From NCBI RefSeq assembly GCF_016134045.1, contig NZ_CP065915.1, positions 1,364,001-1,428,000 on the forward strand: DNA of 64,000 nt. Reading direction: 5' to 3'. A program made the translations under genes and the position numbers. The stretch is from Pelagovum pacificum (GTDB lineage Bacteria; Pseudomonadota; Alphaproteobacteria; Rhodobacterales; Rhodobacteraceae). Positions 28 through 62,969 of this stretch are shown piece by piece. The notes beneath the pieces were generated by a model. It made no database searches and was not told the origin of the DNA. It saw only the letters and a list, made by a program, of their open reading frames with translations. Position 1 is the first letter of the stretch; every line of letters begins with the position of its first letter.

Positions 28-1056
28 TTGCTGGAAGGCCTACCACTCGTGGCCGTTTTCGGGCTTTTTGCCCTGAGCGGCGTCATCATCCTTTTGCTCG
101 GTGTGCGGATGACGGGCATCGCCGATCGCATCGCAGACCTGACCGGATGGGGGGAGGCCGTCGTCGGTGGCGTCCTCCTTGGCGCGGCCACGTCCCTGTC
201 TGGCACCGTCGTTTCTATCAGTGCGGCGCTCGACGGGCGGGCGTCTCTCGCCTTTTCCAACGGGGTCGGCGGCATCGCCGCGCAGACCGCGTTCCTCGCC
301 ATCGCGGACATGACGCACCGCCGTGCCAATCTCGAACATACAGCGGCGGAGATCACCAACCTCTTCCAGGCCGCGCTGCTTATGGTGCTGCTGGCGATCC
401 CGATGTTGGCGTGGTCGGCGCCGGAGTTCACGGTCTTCGCCATTCACCCGGCCTCCGTCCTGCTCATCATCGTTTACGCGGTCGGGGTCCACGCGACGAG
501 CCGGGCGCGGCACGCACCGATGTGGAAGCCGGTCAAGACGCGCGAGACGCGCGAGGACGACCCCGACGAGGAGCCGCACCGCGAGAACGCCACGCGCATC
601 GTGCTGGTCTTCCTCGGCCTGATGGTAATCATGGGGCTGGCCGGCTACGTCATCGCGCAGTCCGCGGTCGAGATCGTCACCCGGCTCGGCGCGTCGGAGA
701 CGATCGTCGGGGCGTTGATGACGGCGGTCGTGACCTCGCTGCCGGAACTCGTCACCACGCTGGCCGCTGTGCGGCGCGGCGCCATGCAGCTGGCGCTCGG
801 CGGGATCATCGGTGGCAACACCTTCGACACGCTGTTCCTGTCGCTGTCCGACTTCGCCTACCGGGACGGGTCGCTCTACCACGCCATCGGGCGGCCGGAT
901 TTCCTGTGGCTCACCGTGGGCATGTTGATGACCGGCGTGCTGCTGATGGGGCTGATCCTGCGGGAGAAGGATGGACCGTTCCGCATCGGTACGGAGAGCG
1001 TCCTGATGCTGCTGATCTACGCCGGGGCGATTGCGGTGCAGATCAGCGTCGGGTAG
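28..1056 (+). CDS. Calcium/sodium exchanger family (CaCA) membrane protein
   Basis: This is an inner-membrane cation antiporter of the Ca2+/cation exchanger superfamily, which normally trades Ca2+ against Na+ or H+. The 342-aa protein has about ten hydrophobic segments split by a charged cytoplasmic loop (residues about 165-190), with two inverted alpha repeats at about 47-92 and 227-270. The second repeat keeps the expected SLPE and GGNTFDT signatures. The first has TSLSGT where the family has an acidic TSLPE-type motif, so one canonical ion-binding carboxylate appears to be missing, and transport stoichiometry or activity may differ. The start is TTG with a GAGGAG-type ribosome site about ten bases upstream; no ATG lies near. 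It stands just before a DUF6314 gene on the same strand with a 10-base gap. Confidence 0.8.
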   Translation: MLEGLPLVAVFGLFALSGVIILLLGVRMTGIADRIADLTGWGEAVVGGVLLGAATSLSGTVVSISAALDGRASLAFSNGVGGIAAQTAFLAIADMTHRRANLEHTAAEITNLFQAALLMVLLAIPMLAWSAPEFTVFAIHPASVLLIIVYAVGVHATSRARHAPMWKPVKTRETREDDPDEEPHRENATRIVLVFLGLMVIMGLAGYVIAQSAVEIVTRLGASETIVGALMTAVVTSLPELVTTLAAVRRGAMQLALGGIIGGNTFDTLFLSLSDFAYRDGSLYHAIGRPDFLWLTVGMLMTGVLLMGLILREKDGPFRIGTESVLMLLIYAGAIAVQISVG

Positions 1057-1066
1057 CCGTTCGCCG

Positions 1067-1477
1067 ATGGATCTGTCGGCATTCCAAGGTGACTGGAGCC
1101 TCGACCGCGAGGTCGAGGATTACCGGAGCGGGGAGACGTCCGCCTTTGGCGGAACGGCCCGGTTCCGGGCCGTCGCCGATGGTCTGGACCTGATCGAGGA
1201 AGGGCGCTGGACGCGCGCCTCCTGGGGGGCTCTGGCGGCATCGCGCCGGTATATCTGGCGACGGGACGGCGAAGGTATCGAGGTGCTCTACGCCGATGGC
1301 CGGCCGTTTCATCGCTTCATCCCGGCCGGGCATGCGCCGGTCGAGGCGCTGCATCACTGCGAGCCGGACATTTACGAGGTGACTTACCGGTTCGACCTCC
1401 CCGACAGCTGGTCGGCGGAGTGGCGCGTGCGCGGGCCGGCCAAGGATTACCTGTCCCGCACGATCTATCGGCGCTGA
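1067..1477 (+). CDS. DUF6314 family protein
   Basis: A 136-aa soluble protein of the DUF6314 family, common as a single small gene in Rhodobacterales. I know of no established function. The sequence opens with a short helix-like LSAFQGDWSLDR motif and has a lipocalin/FABP-like alternation of beta strands, with conserved-looking GTARF, YIWRR and HHCEPDIYEV stretches. No signal peptide or membrane segment is visible. The ATG at 1067 is chosen over an upstream TTG at 1031, because the upstream extension lies inside the exchanger gene and is low-complexity. It follows the exchanger gene closely and may be cotranscribed with it. Function is unassigned. Confidence 0.75.
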   Translation: MDLSAFQGDWSLDREVEDYRSGETSAFGGTARFRAVADGLDLIEEGRWTRASWGALAASRRYIWRRDGEGIEVLYADGRPFHRFIPAGHAPVEALHHCEPDIYEVTYRFDLPDSWSAEWRVRGPAKDYLSRTIYRR

Positions 1478-1550
1478 GCCTCGACGCACCTTGCGGGCGG
1501 CAGTCGCATCGGGCAAAACGTCAATGACTTCATTCAGGAAAGGGTGGCAC

Positions 1551-2150
1551 ATGGCTCTTGCAATGACGGACAAGGTTCTCGCCGACGCGGTGTGGCCTTC
1601 TGAGGCCGAGGGACGCTCCAAGCTCCTGCGGCAGGCGGCCCTTGTGGCGGGCGGCATCCTCTTCATGATCCTCGCCTCGAAGATCCGTGTCCCGATGTGG
1701 CCGGTGCCGGTGACGATGCAGACCTTCGGGGCACTGACCGTCGGTGCCGTGCTCGGCGCGCGGCTCGGCCTCGTGTCGATGTTCGGCTACCTCGCGCTCG
1801 GCGCGCTCGGCATGCAGGTCTTCACCGGTGAGACGGCGGGCCTTGGCTACATGGTCGGGCCGACCGGTGGTTACCTCGTCGGCTTCGCCTTCGCCGCGTG
1901 GGCCATGGGCGCGCTGTCGCGCCGTGGCTGGGACCGCTCCGTCGGCGGCATGGTCGGCGCGCTGCTTATCGGCAACGCCATCATCTACGCCGTCGGCGTT
2001 CCGTGGATGGCCTACCTGTTCGCCGCAGAGCGCGGCATGGGCTGGGTGATCGAGTGGGGCTTCACCAAGTTCCTCATCGGCGACGCGCTGAAGCTGGCGC
2101 TGGCCGCGATGATTTTGCCGGCAGCCTGGCGCTTCGCGGCACGTCGCTGA
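1551..2150 (+). CDS. bioY: Biotin transporter BioY
   Basis: BioY is the membrane S component that binds biotin, either alone or with the BioMN energising module of an ECF-type importer. The 199-aa protein has six hydrophobic segments. It shows the family landmarks: the RVPMWPVPVTMQTFG segment after the first helix, the repeated G-A-RLG region, and GPTGGYLVGF in the middle. The ATG at 1551 follows an AGGAAAGG ribosome site 7 bases upstream; ORFs extended upstream lack one. No bioM or bioN is next to it, as is usual in solo-BioY alphaproteobacteria. A strong hairpin terminator follows at 2180-2203. I did not see a convincing BioR box upstream. Confidence 0.93.
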   Translation: MALAMTDKVLADAVWPSEAEGRSKLLRQAALVAGGILFMILASKIRVPMWPVPVTMQTFGALTVGAVLGARLGLVSMFGYLALGALGMQVFTGETAGLGYMVGPTGGYLVGFAFAAWAMGALSRRGWDRSVGGMVGALLIGNAIIYAVGVPWMAYLFAAERGMGWVIEWGFTKFLIGDALKLALAAMILPAAWRFAARR

Positions 2151-2179
2151 CATCTTCGGCGTGACGGTTTTTTCGGAAA

Positions 2180-2203
2180 GGCGCGGAGCATCGGCTCCGC
2201 GCC
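2180..2203 (+). terminator. Rho-independent terminator after bioY
   Basis: GGCGCGGAGC and GCTCCGCGCC form a perfect 10-bp stem around the loop ATCG, followed directly by TTTTCTCTTT. It would end bioY transcription before the next gene at 2226. Confidence 0.85.
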
Positions 2204-2225
2204 TTTTCTCTTTCGGGGACAGCTG

Positions 2226-3131
2226 ATGATCCGGGCGATCCGCAGCCTCGTGCTGCTTGCGACCTGCCTTTGTGCGCTGGCGATCGGCGCATCCTACCTA
2301 GGGCGGTGGCACGGGGCAGGAGACTCGGTTGCCGTCTTCCGGTTCGAGCTGTCGCTTCTGCTGCTCGTGGGCTCCGCAGTGCTGGCTGGTCTCGGGCCGC
2401 GCGGGGGCGCGGTGACCGGCCTGGTGCTGGCGCTCGTCGCGGGTGGTCCGATCGCGCTTGGCATGGCGCGGACTGGTGTAGCGCCTGATGGGCCAGCCGT
2501 GACGCTCTACCAGAAGAACCTGCTCTATCTCGGGCTCGAGCAGCAGGCGATCATCGGCGACATCCTCGCCGCCGCACCGGATGTCGTGACGCTGGAGGAA
2601 GTCTCTCCGGCCAACCGGCCCGTGGTCGAGGCGCTGCGCGGGGAGTATCCATCCGTGACGCTCTGCCCGTTTTCCGGCGCCGGCGCCGGCGACGTCGCCG
2701 TGCTGAGCCGCTATCCCATGGTCGACGGATCGTCCGTTTGCGCGCCGGGTCTTGCGGCGATGACGGTGCGGCGTGACGACGGCACGGAACTGACCGTTGC
2801 CGGACTTCACCTGTTCTGGCCGTGGCCCTACGAGCAGAGGGCGCAGGTTGCAGAAATCCTCGGTACTCTTCGCGATCTCGATGCACCGGTACTGTTGGCA
2901 GGGGACTTCAACATGGTGCCGTGGTCATGGTCGCTGCGCAGCATCGGTCGGGCGTCGGGTTCGCACCGCGTGGGGCCGGTGGAGAAAACCATCGACCGGG
3001 GCAGTCGCCTTCTGCGGCTGAGGATCGACCACGTGCTTGCGCCCGATGGCTGGACCGGCACGGTGGAGCGGCGGCCGCGGTTCGGCTCGGACCACTACGG
3101 GCTGCTGGCCACGGTGGGAGACGAGGAATGA
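2226..3131 (+). CDS. Endonuclease/exonuclease/phosphatase family protein, membrane-anchored
   Basis: A 301-aa protein of the EEP superfamily (DNase I/AP endonuclease/sphingomyelinase fold). The first ~85 residues hold three hydrophobic segments, so the catalytic domain is probably anchored in the inner membrane and faces the periplasm. The EEP domain runs from about residue 90 (VTLYQKNLLY) to the end. It includes the metal-binding Glu in VTLEEVSP, the active-site LLAGDFNMVPWS motif, and the C-terminal SDHYGLLATV motif with the catalytic His. The exact substrate (nucleic acid, phospholipid or phosphoester) cannot be told. GGGGACAG precedes the ATG. Its stop overlaps the next start in an ATGA, so the two genes are translationally coupled. 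Confidence 0.82.
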   Translation: MIRAIRSLVLLATCLCALAIGASYLGRWHGAGDSVAVFRFELSLLLLVGSAVLAGLGPRGGAVTGLVLALVAGGPIALGMARTGVAPDGPAVTLYQKNLLYLGLEQQAIIGDILAAAPDVVTLEEVSPANRPVVEALRGEYPSVTLCPFSGAGAGDVAVLSRYPMVDGSSVCAPGLAAMTVRRDDGTELTVAGLHLFWPWPYEQRAQVAEILGTLRDLDAPVLLAGDFNMVPWSWSLRSIGRASGSHRVGPVEKTIDRGSRLLRLRIDHVLAPDGWTGTVERRPRFGSDHYGLLATVGDEE

Positions 3132-3850
3132 TCCTGCAGGACCACATGCCTGAGGAGCTGCGCCTCGCGGCGGCGAACCGGTTGCCCAAGATGGCGCCGG
3201 TCCGCGGGGCGTGGGTTCAGGTCGACGGCACCTATGCGGCCCAGATCGCCGAGCGGCAGCGGCTTGCCGCGTTGCACGGCGAGGCGGTCCAGAGGATCGA
3301 GCCGGGGGCGGAAGACGCCGTCGCGGAGCTGTTCGATCTCGTGCTCGACACGCTTGCCGATGACGCCCGGTTCGGCCGCGCAGGAACAGCGATCGTCACG
3401 CCCGACGGCAGACAGGTCGAGCCCGACCGAGGCAAGCCGTTCGAGACGTTGAACGCGCTTCTGAGTGAAGACCTCTGCCTGCTCGACAAGCGGGGCGAGG
3501 AGCATGTGCTCATCGCCGCCTCGCTCTGTTTTCCGGCGGGCTGGACGCTGGCGCAGAAGATCGGCCGGCCCCTGATGCGGATTCACCAGCCCGTGCCGCC
3601 TTATGACGATGACATCGGCCGTCGGGTGCAGCGGTTCTTCGACGGCGTCCGGCCGGGGCAGCCGCTCTGGCGGGCGAACCTGCACGGCTATTCCAGACCG
3701 GACCTCTACTTGCCGCTTCGCGAGGATGAGCCGAAGGCGAAGATCTCCGCCACCCCGGCCTATTGGCGCAGCGAGCGGCAAACCGTACTGCGCCTGCCGC
3801 GAACTGGCGCGGTGCTGTTTGCGATCCACACGGTCGTGGTCGCGGCTTAG
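3128..3850 (+). CDS. Heme-dependent oxidative N-demethylase family protein (DUF3445)
   Basis: A 240-aa protein of the DUF3445 family, of which some members are heme-containing oxidative N-demethylases. Family features visible are the DGRQVEPDRGKPFETLNALLSEDLC-type region (residues about 95-118, described here only in part), CFPAGWTLAQKIGRPL, and the IHQPVPPYDDD motif near residue 160. The start ATG at 3128 overlaps the previous stop (ATGA); longer upstream readings run through the EEP gene in another frame and are rejected. The substrate is unknown, although dimethylamine-type metabolism is a known role of the family. It converges with a small minus-strand gene, sharing four terminal bases. 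Confidence 0.8.
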   Translation: MILQDHMPEELRLAAANRLPKMAPVRGAWVQVDGTYAAQIAERQRLAALHGEAVQRIEPGAEDAVAELFDLVLDTLADDARFGRAGTAIVTPDGRQVEPDRGKPFETLNALLSEDLCLLDKRGEEHVLIAASLCFPAGWTLAQKIGRPLMRIHQPVPPYDDDIGRRVQRFFDGVRPGQPLWRANLHGYSRPDLYLPLREDEPKAKISATPAYWRSERQTVLRLPRTGAVLFAIHTVVVAA

Positions 3851-4152
3851 GCGAGCTGCAAGGCCACGTAGACCACGGTCACCACGATCACGAGACGCCA
3901 GAGAAAACGGAGGACGCGGATCGCCCGCTCGCGACTGCTGCGCCGCGCCGTCGTCGGGGCAGGCTGGGGGATCGGAGCGGGCCGGGGTCCGGTTTCGGGC
4001 CGGCCCCACGGGCTCTGTTTCGGAGACACGGCGGCGGTTTCTCTGGACCGAGAGCCCGGCAGCGCGCGCGGGTTGCCAATTCTGATCCGCTGGTCGCCGC
4101 CGGGGCGGGCCTTCGGGCGGTAGCGGACGTCGAGGGGATGGTATTCGCGCAT
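3847..4152 (-). CDS. Small hypothetical protein with C-terminal membrane anchor
   Basis: A 101-aa protein that I do not recognise. It has a basic, proline-rich N-terminal half beginning MREYHPLDVRYRP and one hydrophobic segment at the extreme C-terminus (LVIVVTVVYVALQLA), the shape of a tail-anchored protein. The ATG at 4152 is preferred because the conserved-looking opening starts there; an in-frame ATG at 4200 would overlap the glnA terminator region. Small proteins of this layout occur in Rhodobacterales without assigned function. It is convergent with the DUF3445 gene. Confidence 0.5.
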   Translation of the reverse strand: MREYHPLDVRYRPKARPGGDQRIRIGNPRALPGSRSRETAAVSPKQSPWGRPETGPRPAPIPQPAPTTARRSSRERAIRVLRFLWRLVIVVTVVYVALQLA

Positions 4153-4206
4153 GGCCCGCAGCCTAGCGTCAGGCCGGCCTCGCGCAAGGCGTCCCGGCAC
4201 AAGAAA

Positions 4207-4232
4207 AAGGGGCGCCCGCAGGGGCGCCCCTT
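4207..4232 (-). terminator. Rho-independent terminator of glnBA
   Basis: AAGGGGCGCCC (4207-4217) and GGGCGCCCCTT (4222-4232) form an 11-bp stem around a 4-base loop. On the minus strand it is followed by TTTCTTG, 22 bases after the glnA stop codon. Confidence 0.88.
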
Positions 4233-4254
4233 CTCGTGCAACTGCTGCTCGGGA

Positions 4255-5661
4255 TTAGCAGGAGTAGTAGAGCTTGAACTCGATCGGGTGCGGCGTGTGC
4301 TCGTAGGCGTAGACTTCTTCCCACTTGAGATCGCAGTAACCGTCGATCTGGTCCTTGGTGAAGACGTTGCCCTTCAGCAGGAACTCGTGGTCGGCCTGCA
4401 GCTCGTCGAGCGCCTCGCGCAGGGATGCGCAGACGGTCGGGATTTCCGCCAGTTCTTCCGGCGGCAGGTCGTAGAGGTCCTTGTCCGAGGACGGGCCCGG
4501 ATCGATCTTGTTCTCGATGCCGTCAAGGCCGGCCATCAGCAGGGCCGCGAAGCACAGGTAGGGGTTCGCCGACGGGTCGGGGAAACGGGCTTCGACGCGC
4601 TTGGCCTTCGGGGATTCCGCCCACGGAATACGCACGCAGCCGGAGCGGTTGCGGGCGGAGTAAGCGCGCAGAACCGGGGCTTCGAAGCCGGGGATCAGGC
4701 GCTTGTAGGAGTTGGTGGACGGGTTCGTGAAGGCGTTGAGCGCCTTGGCGTGCTTCAGGATGCCGCCGATGAACCACAGGGCCTCGTCGGAGAGGTCGGC
4801 GTACTTGTCACCCGCGAAGAGCGGCTTGCCGTCCTTCCAGATGGACATGTTCACGTGCATGCCGGTGCCGTTGTCGCCAGCGACCGGCTTGGGCATGAAA
4901 GTCGCCGACTTGCCGTAGGCCTGCGCGACGTTGTGGATGACGTACTTGTACTTCTGAAGTTCGTCGGCCTGCTTGGTCAGCGAGTCGAAGACGAGGCCGA
5001 GTTCGTGCTGACAGGACGCCACCTCGTGGTGGTGCTTGTCGGTCTTCATGCCGATCTTCTTCATCGTCGACAGCATCTCGGAACGGATGTCCTGGCCGTC
5101 GTCGATCGGGTTCACCGGGAAGTAGCCGCCCTTGACGCCGGGACGGTGGCCGGTGTTGCCCATCTCGTATTCGGTGTCGGTGTTCCAGGCAGCGTCGAGC
5201 GCGTCGACCTGGTAGCTGACCTTGTTCATCGAGACGGAGTAGCGAACATCGTCGAACAGGAAGAACTCGGCTTCCGGGCCCATGAACGCGGTGTCGCCGA
5301 TGCCGGAGGACTTGAGGTAAGCCTCGGCCAGCAGGGCGGTGCCGCGCGGGTCACGGTTGTAGGGTTCCATCGTGTCGGGCTCGACGACCGTGCAGTGCAG
5401 GCAGATCGTCTTCTCGGCGTAGAACGGGTCGATGTAGACGCTCTCGGTGTCGGGCATGAGTTTCATGTCCGATTGGTCGATCGACTTCCAGCCAGCGATC
5501 GAGGAGCCGTCGAACATGAAGCCCTCTTCGAGGAAATCCTCGTCGACTTCATGCGACATGACCGTCACGTGCTGCAGTTTGCCGCGCGGATCGGTGAAGC
5601 GGATGTCGACATACTCGACTTCCTCGTCCTTGATCAGCTTGAGAACGTCTTTGATACTCAT
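4255..5661 (-). CDS. glnA: Type I glutamine synthetase
   Basis: GlnA makes glutamine from glutamate, ammonia and ATP, and is the main ammonia-assimilating enzyme. The 468-aa length is typical of the dodecameric GSI-beta enzymes. Signature segments are present: FDGSSIAGW (50-58), GPEAEFF (128-134), [16 protein letters not shown] (259-273), [10 protein letters not shown] (313-322) and NRSGCVRIP (338-346). Tyr397 in [10 protein letters not shown] is the expected GlnE adenylylation site, so activity should be controlled by covalent modification. It lies 42 bases downstream of glnB on the same strand, the usual alphaproteobacterial glnBA operon, and ends in a strong terminator. Confidence 0.97.
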
Positions 5662-5703
5662 CTGAGCCTTTCCCCTTATTGGATTGTCTTACCGGTCGTC
5701 GGA

Positions 5704-7781
<2,078 letters not shown>

Positions 7782-16725: not shown

Positions 16726-16769
16726 ACTCGCTAGATGGTACCATGGCCGAACATCAAATTTGGGCGGGG

Positions 16770-31662: not shown

Positions 31663-31903
31663 ATAAAACTAAAGGGGCCTCTCACGGGCCCGGCTGTCCC
31701 CCCCCGAAGACGTCTGCGGTGCCTGGGGCTACGAGCAACACGAGGACATGGCTTAATAATCAGGCGGGAGTTTCGATTCTGAAGATTCCCGGATCGACAG
31801 GATCATCGAACGCTGCGATCGGGTTGCGAAGAAATAGACCCCGCGCCCAAGCAAACACGTGTCGTGCTACGACTTGAGCCTCCTAAGGACGTTTTCCAAG
31901 ACC

Positions 31904-33157
31904 ATGCATGACGACCCGTTCTTCGGCTTCGATTCCTACCATCTGACGTTGGCCGTGTTGGGGCTGGTCGTGATCCTCGCCCGCTGGGTGCCGCGCCTCG
32001 TATCGCAGCGGGAACCAGCGGCTGCTCCTCTGATGCTGCTCTTCGGGGCAACTGCGAGCCTGCTGCTGCCGGAAGTCACGTTACTGCCCGACCCGCGCTC
32101 CGCCCCTCTGGCTTGGGAGCTGGCGAGTGAACTGACGGTGATCGTAGCACTCTTCGGTGCCGGTTTGCGGATCGACGCCCTCGGACCTTGGCCGCGCTGG
32201 ATGCCGACGGCGCGGCTCCTCGTTCTCGCAATGCCGCTGACAATCGCAGCAGTGGCGTTCCTCGGCGCAAGCCTCGCTGGCATGACCCTGGCCGCCGCAA
32301 TTCTGCTTGGCGCGGTGCTCGCGCCGACGGACCCGGTCCTCGCCGGGGACGTGCAGGTCGGCCCGCCGCACGAGGGAGAGGAGCACCCGGTTCGCTTCAC
32401 GCTGACGACCGAGGCGGCGCTGAACGACGGGCTGGCCTTCCCTTTCGTCTATCTTGGCCTGCTCGTCGCCGCCGAAGGAACGGGTTTCGTGGACTTCCTG
32501 ACCGACTGGCTCCTGCTCGATGTGATCTGGCGCATCGCGGTCGGCGCGCTGCTTGGCTGGCTGGGCGGGCGGGCACTTGGCTGGGTCCTGTTCCGTCTGC
32601 CGTCCGAGGCGCCGCTCGCCGAAACGGCATCGGGTATCATCGCGCTGGCCGGCATTCTTCTCTGCTATGGCTCGACCGAACTGGCAGAAGGCTACGGCTT
32701 CATTTCGGTCGCGGTCATGGGCCTGACCTTGCGCCGGATCGAGGAACACCACCAATACCATCGGCGCCTCCATGACTTCTCCGAGACCATCGAGCACGCG
32801 CTGACCGCGGTCCTGCTGGTCGCGCTCGGCACGATGCTGCCATTGCTTCTGGGTGCCCTTACTTGGCCGCTGGTGGCCATCGCGGTCTTGGTATTGGCGA
32901 TCGTCCGGCCGCTGGCTGCCTGGATTTCGCTGTGGGGCGCGGGGCTGGGACGGAATGACCGCGCCATTGTCTCTGTCTACGGCGTCCGCGGCGTAGGTTC
33001 GATCTATTGCCTTTGCTACGCCGCAAGCCATATCGAATTCCGCGACGAGGCGGCACTCTGGTCGCTGGTGGCCTTGGTGATCCTGATCTCGGCCGTCCTC
33101 CACGGCTTCACGGTCGGCAGGGCGCTGGAGCATGCGAGCAAGGGGGGCAATGGGTGA
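31904..33157 (+). CDS. CPA1-type sodium:proton antiporter
   Basis: A 417-aa cation/proton antiporter with about 12 membrane segments. The unwound-helix motif LAPTDPVLAGDV and the ion-binding region TEAALNDGLAFPFV are clear CPA1 (NhaP-like) signatures, and GVRGVGSIYCLCYA marks a later conserved helix. ATG at 31904 is used; a GTG at 31859 is an alternative with no obvious benefit. It stands alone between the opine operon and a low-GC islet. Some members carry K+/H+ rather than Na+/H+ exchange. Confidence 0.9.
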   Translation: MHDDPFFGFDSYHLTLAVLGLVVILARWVPRLVSQREPAAAPLMLLFGATASLLLPEVTLLPDPRSAPLAWELASELTVIVALFGAGLRIDALGPWPRWMPTARLLVLAMPLTIAAVAFLGASLAGMTLAAAILLGAVLAPTDPVLAGDVQVGPPHEGEEHPVRFTLTTEAALNDGLAFPFVYLGLLVAAEGTGFVDFLTDWLLLDVIWRIAVGALLGWLGGRALGWVLFRLPSEAPLAETASGIIALAGILLCYGSTELAEGYGFISVAVMGLTLRRIEEHHQYHRRLHDFSETIEHALTAVLLVALGTMLPLLLGALTWPLVAIAVLVLAIVRPLAAWISLWGAGLGRNDRAIVSVYGVRGVGSIYCLCYAASHIEFRDEAALWSLVALVILISAVLHGFTVGRALEHASKGGNG

Positions 33158-33169
33158 AGACGGGCGGAG

Positions 33170-33186
33170 AGCGGACCTTCGCTGCG
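33170..33186 (+). repeat. Dispersed intergenic motif, copy 2
   Basis: AGCGGACCTTCGCTGCG; see the 16770 copy. It lies just past the antiporter stop. Confidence 0.45.
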
Positions 33187-33215
33187 GTGACAGCTAACGT
33201 CCGAAAGGGGCGGAA

Positions 33216-33232
33216 AGCGGTCGTTCGCTGCG
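33216..33232 (+). repeat. Dispersed intergenic motif, copy 3
   Basis: AGCGGTCGTTCGCTGCG, 46 bases after copy 2 in the same orientation. Confidence 0.45.
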
Positions 33233-33381
33233 CTTGTCACCAACCGCAGCAGTGCGCAGTAAGCTACCGGTCGGGATGCCGCTTCTGGTCGACGGGAAAG
33301 CGCAGCTTACGTGATATCTATGTGGAAGTGGTTCTTTCCAATGATTACGGTCTCCATCAGTGGAATTGAGGGACTGGTTGC

Positions 33382-34281
33382 ATGAACCGCCGGTATTATT
33401 GGACCAAGACTTGGGGTGCCCCCGACATCCCAGAGTATGATGCGTTGGCACTAAGCCACGAAGGTACCCGCCAACGGATACTGGGCTACATCCAGCCTGG
33501 AGATATCATTGTTTACCTGACTAGTGACGCCAAAGAATCTGATCCGATGCTGCGCGGGCGGCTCGCTGGAGCCGTCGAGATTGCCGATCCCGTCTTAGAA
33601 GTGGATGTCGAATTTCTGCGACCAAACGAGAAACGACCGCCCGAGCATTATCGGGATGGAGACGGGCGGTTCCGTTGGCCTTATGGCATCGCCGTTTCAC
33701 GGACTTGGGTCTTCATTGAGCAGGAAAGCAACGATACATTAATTCCAGATCACGCGGACAAGCGCATGCAGGGCGCGGCAAGCATTCACGAGATGCGACC
33801 GGAAGAGATCGGTCGTCTTATGTCGCTTGATGTTCGAGAACAGGTGAAGGGCGGGGCGACCGCAAAGTTGCCATTTCAGGGCTCACTCCATCGTCCCTGG
33901 CGCCAACAGGCCGGGATGCGCAAGGCGGCAAACGTGAACCCCGGCACGCATCTCTACATCGCACAGATCTATGATGCTCATGGTTTGACGTTTAAAGTCG
34001 GCTCCGGGAAGGTCGCAGACAGAGTTGATGAACTAAACCGCTACCGCCGTCTGACCCAAGGAGAGGCAAAATGGTCCGAAAGGTCATCGAGCCAATTCGC
34101 CACAGTCGCTGGCGCCCGAGCAGCTGAAGACTTTATCCTTTTTGAAGCAAAAAAGGCTGGGTATGGGTCTGACGATCACTCAGAGTTTCTTGTTGGGATT
34201 TCGAGCCGCGACCTGAATGCGCTCTATGCGAAGTCCATCGAAATCGGCCTGGCCGTGGATGCAGAAGAGACGATCGTTTGA
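33382..34281 (+). CDS. Putative EVE/PUA-like domain protein with C-terminal GIY-YIG-like (T5orf172-type) domain
   Basis: A 299-aa protein of markedly lower GC than its surroundings. The N-terminal half (about 1-150) opens with YYWTKTW and has RQRILGYIQPGDIIVYLTSD, then LRGRLAGAVEIADP and WPYGIAVSRTWVF, a pattern like EVE/PUA-fold domains that read modified bases. The C-terminal part (about 188-285) has LYIAQIYDAHG, then FKVGSGKVADRVDELNRYRR and a later AAEDFILFE and SEFLVGI, resembling GIY-YIG/T5orf172 nucleases. Both domain calls are from pattern recognition and are tentative. If right, this is a modification-dependent nuclease architecture. No nearby methylase was found; a KAP NTPase follows. 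Confidence 0.5.
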   Translation: MNRRYYWTKTWGAPDIPEYDALALSHEGTRQRILGYIQPGDIIVYLTSDAKESDPMLRGRLAGAVEIADPVLEVDVEFLRPNEKRPPEHYRDGDGRFRWPYGIAVSRTWVFIEQESNDTLIPDHADKRMQGAASIHEMRPEEIGRLMSLDVREQVKGGATAKLPFQGSLHRPWRQQAGMRKAANVNPGTHLYIAQIYDAHGLTFKVGSGKVADRVDELNRYRRLTQGEAKWSERSSSQFATVAGARAAEDFILFEAKKAGYGSDDHSEFLVGISSRDLNALYAKSIEIGLAVDAEETIV

Positions 34282-34423
34282 CGTCAGCTGACGGTCCACC
34301 CTCTGCGTGCTGCCGTATCTTGGGTCACGCTCCCCAAGGGCTAGAAGTGGCCACTCTCTGCACTTGCTCGCGGCAGCAACAACGGGCTGGGTGCGACTTC
34401 TGTCCCACAGTCACGGGGCGGAT

Positions 34424-34440
34424 TCCGGACCTTCGTTGCG
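34424..34440 (+). repeat. Dispersed intergenic motif, copy 4 (diverged)
   Basis: TCCGGACCTTCGTTGCG, in the 270-base gap between the fusion-protein gene and the KAP NTPase gene. The gap otherwise shows no gene. Confidence 0.35.
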
Positions 34441-34551
34441 CTGGGCACGAACGACGGCGAAGCGCAGGAAGCGGACTTCGCAAATTTCACAATCTGTCAC
34501 CTTTCGGGACGTTCCCGGCCTAAAGACAGCGTCCACAAATGGTGGTAGGGG

Positions 34552-36594
34552 ATGGAATGCCAGGGACGGCACCAACCCACGACTATGGTCCCAAGTAACA
34601 GCATTTTGGCGGACCAATTCATGTATGAAACAGCCAGAAACCAGATTAGACACTTCCTCTCAAATTGGACAAATTCCACCGACAACCCCAAATTCGCCGT
34701 TTTGATCGAAGGGAAGTGGGGCTGCGGCAAGACGCATTTCATTCAAAGCCTGGTCTATCAGCCTGACTTCACCAAGCGCAAAATAATCTACCTCTCGCTA
34801 TTCGGCGTTGGCAGTATGCAAGATTTTGAGCGGCAGTTGTTCTATGCAGCGTCTTCCAAAGCTACGAAGTTCATACATCAAGGGGTCGGCTTTGCTTCCT
34901 CCTTGTTCTCTGGCGCTATTTCTGTCGGCTCCGGTGGCATATTTTCGGGGTCAGCAGACATCGGCAAGGCTGTTGAAAGCACACTTGGTCAGGTGACCAA
35001 AGCTGTTGATGCGATCAATGACGCACTGGTCATAATAGATGACCTCGAACGTTGTGGGTTTGAACAATCAAAATTGCTTGGCGTCCTCAATCGCTACATC
35101 GAACATGGCAACGCACGGGTCATTCTGGTCGCAAATACAAGCCGGGTCAAAGACGTAAAGTTTAACGAGTTCAGGGAAAAGGTTGTCGGTCAATCCTTCG
35201 AAATCCCACCTGACCCAGAAACTGCGGTAGCGTCCTTCATCAGCGAGATGTCAGAGACGAAAGCCAAGCAAGTGATCGTCGCTCGAACGGATCTAATTGA
35301 AGAACTCTACCGTCTCTCGCAATTCAATAACCTTCGGGCAATTCGTCAGTTCTTGTGGTTTCTTATCGGCATGATTGATGCTGCCGACGAACAATATCTA
35401 CACAATACTGAATTGATGGATAGCTTGACAACGCAAGCATTCATATTCTTCATGGAGTTCAAATTGAACTTGGGAGGCTCAGAATATGCGCTCACCCCTA
35501 TTGATCTTCTCTCCGAGTATGGTGGCCACGATCCCGAAGACCGAAGCTTCTATACGTTCAAGATCAAAGATGATGAGCCCGACACCCCCAAGCGTAAAGT
35601 GATCCTCAAATACAACCTCGTGACTGGTATCCGAACATCCGTGACAATCCGTCAGTGGATCGACATTCTGAATAGCGGAACGGTCGATCCCGAACGGTTC
35701 AATAGCGAACTGGCAGGCGCATCCGAAGTTAACGGTCCGGACAGTTGGCCCTCTTGGAAACGGCTTTGGCATATTTGGAGTTGGGACTTTTCGGACGGGT
35801 CGGTCAAAGAATTCGACGCCGACATCACCGACATCCTAAAGGGTATTGAACAAGGTAGGTATCAGAACCCAGTTGTCGTAATGCATGTCGTAGGCGTTAT
35901 CTTAATGTTGCTGAACGAGGGATTGATTAAAGATGCCACGGATGGCTGGGTTCAAAGACTCAAGCGATATATTGATGAAGTAGTCACTCCTGGCCTTGAC
36001 CTTGAAAGCTTTAGTTCAACCCGTTGGAATTTTGACTCTGGATATGATGGTTTGGGCTATGTTCGTCGCGACGAGCAGGACTTCAAGGAAGTGCTGTCTC
36101 ATTTGCAGGAGGCCGCAAAGAACTGGTACGCTAACTGGAAAGCCCAACCGGTTGCAGATCATTTAATCGAGACACTGAAAACAGACTACTTTGAGTTTCT
36201 AGGGGACCTAACCTACATCAACGGCAAGGGCACCCAAAGATTCTTTCGCGAGCCTATATTGCAGAGCATCGATCCTGGGAACTTCGTCGCCGCTTGGTTA
36301 TCCCTTGGTAGGGAAAAAGAACGGATGCTGACTGGGTATTTTAAAGATCGCTATGACAGCGTGCCACAACTAATCCTGACCGAAGGCCCCTGGTGGCAGA
36401 GCGTAGCAGACTGCCTTTCCGTCAAGATCGACAAAGAGGAAATAATGCCGCGTAAAGCCCAGATGCGCGGTTTGGTGAAGGGGATCGCCAACTTGGTGGA
36501 TGAAAGACTATGTAAACAGCGACTGCGTGGTCTGTTGACCGGCCAAGAGTGCCAAAGTGAAATCGACCTCAGTTGGACACTCAAACAAACGTAA
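34552..36594 (+). CDS. KAP family P-loop NTPase
   Basis: A 680-aa NTPase of the KAP group of STAND-like P-loop proteins. Walker A is IEGKWGCGKTHF (52-63) and Walker B is ALVIIDDLERCG (158-169), with the IDDLxRC form diagnostic of KAP. A Gly-rich hydrophobic stretch (about 110-132) between them suggests the membrane-embedded insertion typical of the family. The ~450 C-terminal residues are unassigned and helical in look. The start is uncertain: ATG at 34552 has GGTAGGGG touching it, and ATG at 34585 is an alternative. GC is clearly lower than in the flanks, indicating transfer. KAP NTPases occur in plasmids and phage-defence loci. Confidence 0.78.
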   Translation: MECQGRHQPTTMVPSNSILADQFMYETARNQIRHFLSNWTNSTDNPKFAVLIEGKWGCGKTHFIQSLVYQPDFTKRKIIYLSLFGVGSMQDFERQLFYAASSKATKFIHQGVGFASSLFSGAISVGSGGIFSGSADIGKAVESTLGQVTKAVDAINDALVIIDDLERCGFEQSKLLGVLNRYIEHGNARVILVANTSRVKDVKFNEFREKVVGQSFEIPPDPETAVASFISEMSETKAKQVIVARTDLIEELYRLSQFNNLRAIRQFLWFLIGMIDAADEQYLHNTELMDSLTTQAFIFFMEFKLNLGGSEYALTPIDLLSEYGGHDPEDRSFYTFKIKDDEPDTPKRKVILKYNLVTGIRTSVTIRQWIDILNSGTVDPERFNSELAGASEVNGPDSWPSWKRLWHIWSWDFSDGSVKEFDADITDILKGIEQGRYQNPVVVMHVVGVILMLLNEGLIKDATDGWVQRLKRYIDEVVTPGLDLESFSSTRWNFDSGYDGLGYVRRDEQDFKEVLSHLQEAAKNWYANWKAQPVADHLIETLKTDYFEFLGDLTYINGKGTQRFFREPILQSIDPGNFVAAWLSLGREKERMLTGYFKDRYDSVPQLILTEGPWWQSVADCLSVKIDKEEIMPRKAQMRGLVKGIANLVDERLCKQRLRGLLTGQECQSEIDLSWTLKQT

Positions 36595-36642
36595 GCCTAT
36601 CTAACCAATCCGGCGCGGTACCAATGATCGCTGCGTGCTGGG

Positions 36643-36659
36643 AGCGGTCATTCGCTGCG
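36643..36659 (+). repeat. Dispersed intergenic motif, copy 5
   Basis: AGCGGTCATTCGCTGCG, the copy closest to consensus. Confidence 0.45.
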
Positions 36660-36688
36660 CGATCCATGAACGGCAGCAAAGGGCCGGG

Positions 36689-36705
36689 AGCTGACCTTGG
36701 CTGCG
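36689..36705 (+). repeat. Dispersed intergenic motif, copy 6 (diverged)
   Basis: AGCTGACCTTGGCTGCG, 46 bases from copy 5, the same spacing as copies 2 and 3. Confidence 0.35.
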
Positions 36706-36900
36706 AGGGTGGCCATAAGCGACCCTTCCCAAACATTTGCTGCGCGCATATCGTAGCCTATGGAATGAAAGTGCCGATTGGCAGGCAGAGATGATGCTCA
36801 CGGCGCGCGTCATATTCGACGCGCTAATCACTCGTAGGGCAGGAGAAATGACGGCAAGCGCCATTGCCGACCTATCCTGCGTCGATCTCGTTTTCAGGCA

Positions 36901-37827
36901 TCAATAGATATGGGTCTCGCGCGCGCCGTGCTCGACGCTCCAGCCGCGGTACATGCCTTCGCAGTTGAACGGCGCGGTAAAGCTGCCGTCCGCAGCCACC
37001 GCGATCAGCCCGCCGGAGCTTCCGATCGACGTAAGATCGTCGCGGACCACGCCGCCGGCCGCATCGTAGAGCGAGGCCGAGGTCAACCGTATCCGGGCTT
37101 CGATCTCGTGCGCGACGGCCAGCCTCAGGAAAGCTTCGCCGTCGCCGGTGGCAGAGACGGCGCAGCTGCGGTTGTCGGCGAAGGTGCCCGCGCCGATGAC
37201 CGGGGTGTCGCCCACGCGGCCCGTCCGCTTTGCGGTCATGCCCCCGGTCGAAGTGGCGGCCGCCAGCGCGCCGTGCCGGTCGCGAGCGACAGCGCCCACC
37301 GTGCCGTGTCGCCGACTCGGATCATCGTCCAGCCGTCCGGCGCGCTCCATCTCGAGCGTCTCCTGCAGGCTGTACCAGCGCGCCTGGGTGAAGAAATAGG
37401 TGTCCTCCTCGAAAGGTAGCCCAGCCTCCGTGGCGACGGCATGCGCGCCTGCACCTATCATCAGTACGTGGTCGGTCCGCTGCATCACCGCACGGGCAGC
37501 GCGGATCGGATTGCGGGGGCCGCAGATTCCGGCGACCGCGCCCGCCATCCGGTCGCGCCCATCCATGATCGCGGCGTCCATCTCGTGCCGCCCGTCGCGG
37601 GTGAAAACCGCGCCACGGCCGGCGTTGAACAGCGGTTCGTCCTCAAGCGCGCAGACAGCCGCCTCGACCGCGTCGACCGCGCTGCCATCGGCGGCCAGCA
37701 CGGCCTCGCCGGCGGCCAGGGCGTGGTTCAGAGCCACATGATACCGCCCCTCGGCCTCGGGCGTCATCGCCTCTCGGGGCAATACGCCGGCTCCTCCATG
37801 GATCACGAGAGTGTAGCTGCCAGTCAT
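36901..37827 (-). CDS. iaaA: Isoaspartyl peptidase / plant-type L-asparaginase
   Basis: An Ntn-hydrolase of 308 aa that cleaves beta-aspartyl dipeptides and, more weakly, asparagine. It is made as a precursor that cuts itself before the nucleophile Thr176 in RRHGTVGAVARD. Other landmarks are LVIHGGAG at the N-terminus, FNAGRGAVFTRDG, and the substrate-binding TGGMTAKRTGRVGDTP and ATGDGEAFLR loops. ATG at 37827 begins the conserved part; the open frame runs further upstream without a conserved start. It diverges from cyanophycinase. In cyanophycin breakdown this activity would split the beta-Asp-Arg dipeptides that cyanophycinase releases. Confidence 0.93.
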   Translation of the reverse strand: MTGSYTLVIHGGAGVLPREAMTPEAEGRYHVALNHALAAGEAVLAADGSAVDAVEAAVCALEDEPLFNAGRGAVFTRDGRHEMDAAIMDGRDRMAGAVAGICGPRNPIRAARAVMQRTDHVLMIGAGAHAVATEAGLPFEEDTYFFTQARWYSLQETLEMERAGRLDDDPSRRHGTVGAVARDRHGALAAATSTGGMTAKRTGRVGDTPVIGAGTFADNRSCAVSATGDGEAFLRLAVAHEIEARIRLTSASLYDAAGGVVRDDLTSIGSSGGLIAVAADGSFTAPFNCEGMYRGWSVEHGARETHIY

Positions 37828-38004
37828 GTTGCACCTCGTGCCGATTTCCGGACAATGGCCAATCCCTCTGCCCGGGCAGTGCCGAAACAAGTGGCAGTTC
37901 GTGACGCGAAGATCAATTCATGCGACATGGGGCTGTCGCGTGAACGATTTCTTGGTAACCTAACCACAACATATGGGGCATCGCCCGCCAATCAGGACAG
38001 ATTG

Positions 38005-60411: not shown

Positions 60412-60769
60412 CTGGGCCTGCATCGAATGACATTGGACCCGATCTTCACCTAACTGGCGGTCGCCGCGGGCCGAGTGCTTGCGGCGCCGTCGTAAGCTCG
60501 CGGATCGCGGTCACCTTAGCTCGGCCCCCGTGGCTGCCGCCGGCTGGACAGCCTCGGCGCAGATCGTCTGTCAGCGCGGGTGGCTCGCGCCGTTCTCTAG
60601 CCCCGCTGCGAGCGACTTGAGGACGTCTTGGCTTTCGTGCAACACCAAAACGTCCCTCACGAGCGCTAGGCGTGGGTGAGTATTCCGGTCTTGTCGAAGG
60701 CAGAGCCTTGGAATCTGCGAATATGGTCCTGACCTGAGTAGATACAGCACGAAAACAAGGTGACTAATA
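60412..60769. other. Gene-free spacer
   Basis: This 358-base gap between the GH42-like gene and the orphan at 60770 shows no supported gene, RNA or terminator. GC falls toward its right end. Confidence 0.45.
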
Positions 60770-61534
60770 TTGGGTTTTTTCACGGGCTTGGACGCAAACG
60801 ACCATGAGGGTCACTTCAATGCGCTAAGCAAAATGGTGGAGGCAGTCCACGGTGTCGAGATACCACCTACGCACAAGCGCGCTGAGTCTTGGCACGAGGC
60901 AGAGACCTTTTTCAACGCTCCGATCGGGCAGGAGGTTCGATCGTTTCTGGGTTTCATCACAGACGTCGTCGCCAGTGGACATTTCGAGACACTGGTCGGT
61001 GACAAAGGTAAGATGAAGCCAACGGACCCCTGCCAGTATCACCTCGAATTAAAGAACCTGAACGAGATCGATCCCTTTTTCGAGGGGATCAGCTACATGG
61101 AAAATTATCAGTCTCGATCATATTATTCAATTCTTACATCCCATCAGGCGCAATCCCCCTGTCCGACGGCAAGTTACACTTTACGGAAGTACAAGGGCAA
61201 ACATGAGCTCGCGCGCGGTCCATATGGCGATGTCAGTCTTATTTCCTTCGCGCTTCGGTTCTATGGTCAAAGATCGGCAAAGGAAGGCCGTTCGTTGAGT
61301 TCGACCTCTCTAGATGCTGAAGCATTTCATGCGGAAGCATGCCGGTGTTTCGGTAAGCCGGCTGACTTGGGTGAGGGTGTGTACTTTTTTGAAGCTGATA
61401 ATGCTGAGATACTGATAAGGCCACTTGCCGATATTGGGGTGCATTTGTCTGTCTTCGACTTGCACAAGCCGTCGCCCGTTTCTGATGAGCTTTTGAGGCT
61501 GTTGGATGGCGGCATGGCGACGTTCAAAGCCTGA
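60770..61534 (+). CDS. Hypothetical protein, lower-GC orphan
   Basis: A 254-aa soluble protein that I do not recognise. It starts at TTG (60770) with AAGGTGA about seven bases upstream; no ATG lies near the beginning of the frame. It opens GFFTGLDANDHEGHFNALSK, has an acidic character, and no membrane segment or known motif. The C-terminal part (PADLGEGVYFFEADNAEILI) looks beta-rich. GC and codon use are lower than in neighbouring operons, suggesting transfer. No functional link to flanking genes is visible. Confidence 0.6.
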   Translation: MGFFTGLDANDHEGHFNALSKMVEAVHGVEIPPTHKRAESWHEAETFFNAPIGQEVRSFLGFITDVVASGHFETLVGDKGKMKPTDPCQYHLELKNLNEIDPFFEGISYMENYQSRSYYSILTSHQAQSPCPTASYTLRKYKGKHELARGPYGDVSLISFALRFYGQRSAKEGRSLSSTSLDAEAFHAEACRCFGKPADLGEGVYFFEADNAEILIRPLADIGVHLSVFDLHKPSPVSDELLRLLDGGMATFKA

Positions 61535-61566
61535 GCTGGTACGTCCAATGTCCGACTTGAGCTGCT

Positions 61567-61583
61567 ACCGGACATCCGCTGCG
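61567..61583 (+). repeat. Dispersed intergenic motif, copy 7 (diverged)
   Basis: ACCGGACATCCGCTGCG, in the convergent gap between the two orphan genes. Confidence 0.35.
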
Positions 61584-61781
61584 TTCCACCCGGAGGTCGG
61601 CTTTGGTCCGGGGAACGACGGTCGTTGCTGGCCTCTAGCCAACTGGCTCGCTGCGTCGCCGCTGTCCGAACTAAGCCCGTTTTTCCTGATGCGGCGGTTT
61701 GCCTGAGTGTCCGCTATTGCCTGTCCGTTTGGCCGGCTGAAGCTGATCAAGCGGCCATCAAACATGTTGAGGGGCCTGACC

Positions 61782-62291
61782 TTAGTAGTCCCATTTCCGA
61801 TACTCTTCGTTCTCGGACTTCATCATCTCATATAGCCAAACCATACGATCAAGATACCAACTCTTACCAAGGTATGCCAGCGAGACGCCGAGAACGGCGC
61901 CCCAGATCGAATAATAGACAATCGCCCAGATCGCTATCAGCATGCCAGCCGACGAAATAATATTCAGGATTGAGTACAGCGGTGTCTTGTGGACATGGGG
62001 AATCTCGATTTTGTCCCTGTTAAGGTAAACCCTCTCCCCCAGCACAGATTTCGAAGCCCAATTTCTCGTCGACTTGGGCTTCGCGAAGAAAACCGGATTA
62101 AAAAACATCCAAAGCAGGGAGACAATTCCTGGGATCATGGACCACCAGCCAATCCAGACGCGGCTCCAGAACGCGAGCACGATAAGGGGCAGGACGGAAT
62201 ACCTTGTCCAAACGCTCCATGGATTGGCGTGCTTCATCCAATTATCATCGGTCAGCCGGAACGCCTGCGCGACTTTTCTTTCGAGTGTCAT
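61782..62291 (-). CDS. DUF6653 family membrane protein
   Basis: A 169-aa protein with four or so hydrophobic segments in two pairs (about 30-70 and 110-150). The N-terminal part, DDNWMKHANPWSVWTRYSVL, followed by LAFWSRVWIGWWSMIPG and FFNPVFFAKP, matches the DUF6653 family as I know it. Function is not established. ATG at 62291 starts the conserved part; the frame is open to 62348 but has no ribosome site there. It is convergent with the 60770 gene and has lower GC than the core genes. Confidence 0.7.
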   Translation of the reverse strand: MTLERKVAQAFRLTDDNWMKHANPWSVWTRYSVLPLIVLAFWSRVWIGWWSMIPGIVSLLWMFFNPVFFAKPKSTRNWASKSVLGERVYLNRDKIEIPHVHKTPLYSILNIISSAGMLIAIWAIVYYSIWGAVLGVSLAYLGKSWYLDRMVWLYEMMKSENEEYRKWDY

Positions 62292-62734
62292 CGTACCCCG
62301 CTTTAACGTGCCATTGGATACTGCAGCAAATGTTCGGGATCCAACCAACGTGATGCACAGGCCGAGCTTTGAAAGCGGCGGTTCAGAGAACCGGTCGATC
62401 CGTACTGCGCGACGGAGCGTTGGCGGCCCTTGGAGGTCATCTATTCTCTGCAGAACTCGTTAATAGTCCTTCAGAGAGTAAGAAAAGCGCCTGTTCGTGC
62501 AACTTGCAAGCCAATCCAGATCAGGCGAGCTAAGCCAAAAAACTGCTCAGGAACGTCGTACTAGGTCCTGGAAAACTCTGGGACCAAGGCGCTGACCACC
62601 TACAAGCTTTGCTTGATCTAGGTTCTGGCGCGTTAAGCGCCGGCCGTGGTTCACGTCGGCGATCGCGGAGGTCCCGGCACGGCCTCGGTGACGACGGCTT
62701 GACCCCGCGCACGTCTCACGGCACCTTCCGTCCC

Positions 62735-62921
62735 GATGGTTCTCGCACGCCAGACCGGCACGCGGGATGAAAAGGGAACACGGTGCGGTGTAGCCATAAG
62801 GCGCCAAATCCGTGACTGCCCCCGCAACTGTAAGCGGTGAGCTCCCCCGGCATGACCACTGGACCGACGCGGTCCGGGAAGGGTCGGGGCAGCATGGACC
62901 CGCGAGTCAGGAGACCTGCCA
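62735..62921 (+). ncRNA. Cobalamin (adenosylcobalamin-type) riboswitch
   Basis: The sequence has the ordered conserved blocks of the class: GGGATGAAAAGGGAACACGG (62764-62783), AAATCCGTGACTGCCCCCGC (62806-62825) leading to AACTGTAAGCGGTGA, the GACCACTGG box (62863-62871), and the 3' B12 box AGTCAGGAGACCTGCC (62905-62920). It ends about 50 bases before the first start codon. The ribosome site GGGGAGGA at 62956-62963 lies next to a possible anti-SD GTCCCGG, so translational control is likely; no terminator was seen. Confidence 0.93.
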
Positions 62922-62969
62922 TCGCTCAATTGTAACCCATCGGGCGGGGTGTCCCGGGGAGGAATAGCG

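Follow-up and report, generated by a model that had tools for sequence, protein, structure and literature searches.

Numerous fusions of EVE domains with PLDc or GIY-YIG nucleases are described among putative modification-dependent enzymes in passages of a survey by Bell, Wolf and Koonin (2020, PMC7641849). The KAP family of NTPases, for its part, includes Tmn, a defence protein with two transmembrane domains that is active against phages, according to passages of PMC11846954. Here we examine two adjacent genes on the + strand of a 64,000-nucleotide stretch of DNA (the window) from Pelagovum pacificum, whose 4.09-Mb genome (G000, the host genome) is assembled on 3 contigs. Gene 1 (33382..34281, 299 amino acids) encodes a predicted modification-dependent nuclease in which an EVE-like domain is fused to a GIY-YIG-superfamily domain, and gene 2 (34621..36594), hereafter KAP, encodes a KAP P-loop NTPase of the PADLOC candidate family PDC-S49. 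A sequence-only reading of the window had proposed that the pair forms a single candidate defence system. Our analysis leads us to consider it likely that they are two independent single-gene acquisitions of defence type lying side by side, a type IV-like gene 1 and a solo PDC-S49 KAP.

The two genes occupy a low-GC insert at 33.2-36.7 kb of a window with a mean GC of 0.64. As the sequence-only reading had observed, they are poorer in GC than their neighbors (0.552 for gene 1 and 0.486 for KAP, versus 0.656-0.692 in five nearby genes), and the same holds at third codon positions (0.577 and 0.558 versus 0.762-0.895). Their proposed pairing was not borne out by other genomes. Among 390 genomes of the order, gene 1 was matched in 17 and KAP in 21 (at E 0.001), and the only genomes on both lists are the host genome and G021. 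The same two are the only ones with a KAP match among the ten genomes that carry gene 1 relatives (the host genome, six close and three distant), and the KAP of G021 is distant, 27% identical, and lies on another contig than the gene 1 match. Conversely, eight genomes, the host included, have a KAP of at least 42% identity, and gene 1 was matched in none of the seven others. Similarity at the DNA level covers gene 1 only in loci L003 (33322-34285) and L055 (33332-34268), and KAP only in L058 (34564-36578). In the loci examined, no adjacency of gene 1 and KAP was found outside the host genome, so that the check for conserved co-occurrence gave no pairing elsewhere; the genomes are a sample, in which a rare pairing could be missed. 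Because the two genes occur apart in the other genomes sampled and DNA similarity ends at each of them separately, it is improbable that they make up a new two-gene system, and their adjacency is no evidence of a joint one. What stands of the proposed defence system is its defence type, through the neighbors of gene 1 relatives and the PADLOC assignment of KAP; what lacks support is its unity.

Gene 1 itself matched nothing meaningful in Pfam, NCBIfam or PADLOC, remaining below all Pfam cut-offs, and its sequence returned no rows from the PDB. Its assignment as an EVE-like and GIY-YIG-superfamily fusion draws on the predicted fold together with remote profile matches and a set of invariant residues. 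An AlphaFold model (mean pLDDT 86.2, pTM 0.57) and its fold matches give the N-terminal part (33382..33873, + strand, about residues 1-164) an EVE-like fold. The Pfam EVE profile, PF01878, matches neither gene 1 nor 39 close members, and scores below its cut-off of 23 bits, at 13.4-21.0 bits, in five of seven full-length distant relatives. The C-terminal domain (33937..34278, + strand, residues 186-299) reaches 15.2 bits against T5orf172, under the cut-off of 20. This cut-off is exceeded in relatives L013 (27.3 bits) and L018 (24.2 bits), as is the MUG113 cut-off of 22.3 in relative L016 (26.7 bits), and sub-threshold T5orf172 matches, the best at E 0.027, occur in 11 of the 39 close members. 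Searched with a profile built from 16 C-terminal domains, the PDB returned four rows at E<=1, namely UPF0213 1ywl (0.0076), a designed protein (0.026), UPF0213 1zg2 (0.028) and Hpy188I (0.58); we take UPF0213 and Hpy188I to be GIY-YIG proteins. VIA-align of the domain placed Slx1 on top. The conserved GIY-YIG order of Tyr, [K/Y]-I/V-G, Arg and Glu is present in gene 1, where Y192, K205, G207, R214 and E249, presumably the catalytic set, are kept in all 39 close members and all 16 C-terminal domains; E268 is also invariant. By these weak but separate lines the C-terminus is assigned to the GIY-YIG superfamily as T5orf172/MUG113-like, so the earlier proposal of a modified-base-reader-type domain joined to a nuclease-like domain was right in kind. 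The homologue search gathered 76 proteins, gene 1 included; no gene 1 was found on plasmids, and none of 54 pattern matches of the gene 1 profile in viral contigs was a relative.

We inspected 20 loci containing relatives of gene 1 (L002-L004, L055-L057, L066-L068, L175-L185), and in 15 of these, restriction-modification or GmrSD genes lie within a few genes (3 of 6 close-family loci and 12 of 14 distant-relative loci). The neighbors are type I restriction genes (L067, L068, L180-L183, L185), MmeI- or Eco57I-like type IIG genes (L176, L178; L184, where the gene is in pieces, and L179 by similarity to L176/L178), a C5-methylase/Vsr/EcoRII-C set (from Pfam for L056, from identical first residues for L057), an N6/N4 methylase with a UvrD helicase (L175), and GmrSD in two pieces (L004). 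Pfam identified the restriction genes at L004, L056, L067, L068, L175, L176 and L178, and for L180-L183 and L185 the basis is BLAST similarity to the L067/L068 genes at 23-31% identity. No restriction-type neighbor was recognized at L002, L003, L055, L066 and L177, where not every neighbor was searched. The copies of gene 1 in L003 and L004 are frameshifted. Because 15 of the 20 loci lie beside such genes, the best reading of gene 1 is a predicted modification-dependent (type IV-like) nuclease. A longer form of 425-427 amino acids occurs in L056 (11897-13180) and L057 (8772-10049); it has an additional N-terminal stretch of about 125 residues, without a Pfam match in L056, and lies beside the C5-methylase/Vsr/EcoRII-C set.

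For gene 2, the sequence-only call of a KAP NTPase with Walker motifs holds. Pfam KAP_NTPase (PF07693) matches at 59.5 bits against a cut-off of 20, PADLOC PDC-S49 matches over nearly the whole length at 1.2e-114, and G44, W46, G47, G49, K50, T51, D153, D154, E156 and R157 are invariant in 37 aligned sequences. The hydrophobic insertion noted earlier is present only in mild form: the best 19-residue hydropathy mean between the Walker motifs is 1.28, and the maximum of 2.22 lies elsewhere, at residue 418 of the 657-residue form. The open frame of 34552-36594 would give 680 amino acids, and the ATG at 34621 gives 657. Judging from relatives, the latter is the more likely start, since the database twin P0077 has 657 amino acids and the L058 relative (75% identical) starts there. 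Among 385 genomes of the class, a KAP match at E 1e-100 was found in the host genome only. Against the PDB, the KAP sequence returned one row (E 0.22) and the KAP profile none. The profile found 62 loci in viral contigs, 20-33% identical, and six KAP records on plasmids are all below 30% identity.

The relatives of KAP point to a different partner. In six of the seven other genomes with a KAP of at least 42% identity (L059-L064), a Dsr1/SIR2 gene follows directly, encoding a SIR2 protein of 1263-1266 amino acids, and in all six loci a 4-base overlap joins the TGA of the last KAP frame to the Dsr1 ATG; KAP is interrupted in L064, with an earlier stop in that frame. Dsr1 was called by PADLOC on L060 only (3e-81), the other five proteins being 83-99% identical to that one, and SIR2 by Pfam for L059, L060 and L061. 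The KAP and Dsr1 genes of these six genomes constitute a candidate two-gene system, and a better one than gene 1 with KAP. The seventh genome's KAP, in L058 (75% identical), is without Dsr1, as is that of the window, where the best Dsr1 match is at E 0.038 only. Genome-wide, no Dsr1 was found in five genomes, the host included, by a search run without a positive control.

The insert lies between an upstream gene (31859-33157) and a downstream gene on the opposite strand (36901-37890), which we take to be antiporter-like and asparaginase-like, respectively. The reported bracketing of the two genes by repeats is real, and the repeat is dispersed across the family. Copies of a 46-nucleotide direct repeat, all on the + strand, stand at both ends of the insert and between the genes: two in tandem upstream of gene 1 (33162..33253; matrix scores 48.0 at 33162 and 31.5 at 33208), one in between (34416..34461; 24.1), and two downstream of KAP, 46 nucleotides apart (36635..36726; 32.3 at 36635 and 13.8 at 36681). 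The weight matrix was trained solely on an array located at 2.41 Mb in the host genome, and 40 random first-order Markov windows gave a best score of 18.0 and a mean of maxima of 11.6; the copy at 36681 is therefore weak by itself. A further copy lies elsewhere in the window at 16762 (19.9). In the array at 2.41 Mb the unit is repeated 5.5 times (Tandem Repeats Finder), and the neighboring sequence resembles the antiporter-like gene at its end (71% over 38 residues) and, by eye, at its beginning too, as though an internal part had been deleted. Across 20 family genomes, a 24-position core, with no more than 2 mismatches allowed, gave 102 matches versus 6 for the reversed pattern, and in the table of these genomes, 11 of 12 neighboring non-tandem pairs within 8 kb, a distance chosen afterwards, have the same direction by eye. 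In L058 (G144), repeat-like copies in the same direction stand on both sides of KAP, at 10608 and 13051, scoring 22.3 and 17.9 (cut-off 16, with 18 matches in all scanned loci versus 2 random). The only DNA match on plasmids is one of 68 nucleotides at the middle repeat. The 46-nucleotide repeat is thus a dispersed element of the family and not private to the insert. A stretch of it also occurs in L069 (3874-4128), and in L194 (G266) a copy lies about 150 nucleotides from the gene (492-6752, GC 0.51) of a 2086-residue protein that, judged by eye, may be a large defence protein.

If gene 1 and KAP were one defence system, gene 1 would detect or cut modified phage DNA and KAP would respond. They do share a strand, a low-GC insert and a defence-type character, and in L055 (G194) a PifA-like KAP frame (L055 2-631, PADLOC 4.4e-67), truncated where the stretch ends, is about 8.5 kb away from a gene 1 of 89% identity; the interval contains a phage-type integrase. 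We nonetheless hold joint function to be very unlikely. Of six further genomes carrying a close gene 1, only G021 has a match to this KAP, a distant one, and G194 has none; gene 1 was not matched in the seven other genomes with a similar KAP; and the genes are separated by a gap of 339 nucleotides (270 with the KAP start at 34552) that contains a repeat copy. Moreover, no restriction or KAP partner was recognized next to gene 1 in L002, and no gene 1 accompanies KAP in L058. The same L058 locus bears on another alternative, that KAP is what remains of a KAP-Dsr1 pair and has lost its function. The frequency of Dsr1 behind KAP elsewhere and its absence from the searches of the window and the host genome speak for this, but the KAP frame is intact and retains the residues of the P-loop and Walker B, and the lack of Dsr1 beside the L058 KAP fits a separate solo lineage; we consider a non-functional remnant unlikely.

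Gene 1 might also be a reader or regulator, for example of RNA or host methylation, that uses its GIY-YIG-type domain for binding only, and non-defence roles, some RNA-linked, have been proposed for EVE domains (PMC7641849). The invariance of the nuclease-fold residues and the many relatives beside restriction genes weigh against this, and we give it little credence. Least probable of all, with hardly any weight in our judgment, is that the repeat array actively captures single-gene defence cassettes, with gene 1 and KAP as two cassettes in a growing array. The like-oriented copies that bracket and separate the two genes, those flanking KAP in L058 (one weak) and the array behind the deleted antiporter-like copy at 2.41 Mb would fit such capture, but copies lie mostly beside ordinary genes (seven stretches, by eye).

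Two independent acquisitions thus remain our preferred explanation, on the calculated basis of folds and families, conserved nuclease-type residues, relatives' neighbors, lack of co-occurrence in the sample, and repeat copies. From these we infer base reading, cutting and defence. The EVE-like domain of gene 1 would flip out and read a modified base in incoming DNA, which the GIY-YIG-superfamily domain would then cut, in a type IV-like, modification-dependent restriction. The solo KAP probably links infection sensing to a shut-down driven by ATP. As to how and in which order the genes arrived, the repeat-containing site that follows the upstream antiporter-like gene may have taken up foreign DNA more than once, and it would be this repeated acquisition, not joint function, that placed gene 1 and KAP side by side. 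In an empty-site test of 5 genus genomes, both flanking genes were never found together outside the host genome.

Low GC is not unique to the insert, as a second such stretch at 60500-62700 of the window contains an orphan frame of 254 amino acids with no Pfam match (60770-61534) and a DUF6653 protein (61782-62348). At gathering scores, Rfam gave 2 matches in the window and none in the insert; a cobalamin riboswitch lies at 62720-62937 (127.5 bits). Promoter-like sites number 3 versus 3.1 expected. Terminator-like sites number 8 versus 3.5 expected (standard deviation 2.2), both of the + strand ones being inside the KAP gene.

In comparison with known systems, gene 1 falls into a clade whose architecture has already been published, and KAP into a candidate family that PADLOC lists. 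The fusion of EVE-type readers to nucleases, which the sequence-only reading had given as known, is already in print, and like gene 1, the EVE/GIY-YIG fusions in passages of PMC7641849 combine such a reader with a GIY-YIG-superfamily nuclease in predicted modification-dependent restriction; they differ in that T5orf172 and MUG113 are not in the main text of that survey. Our analysis therefore adds a clade of EVE and T5orf172-type proteins, often beside restriction systems, and clears away a gene 1-KAP pairing that other genomes do not support. Its less ordinary by-product is the KAP-Dsr1 pair; neither this nor an EVE-KAP pair was found in the literature searched, which is no proof of absence, and PDC-S49 is not mentioned there. 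By description, the window KAP resembles Tmn in being a KAP NTPase, but its insertion is only mildly hydrophobic where Tmn has two transmembrane domains, and its PADLOC match to PifA is weak (E 0.038 only). It is closest to PDC-S49, a candidate only in the PADLOC library, which it matches over nearly its whole length, and it departs from most of its relatives of this type in standing without an adjacent Dsr1.
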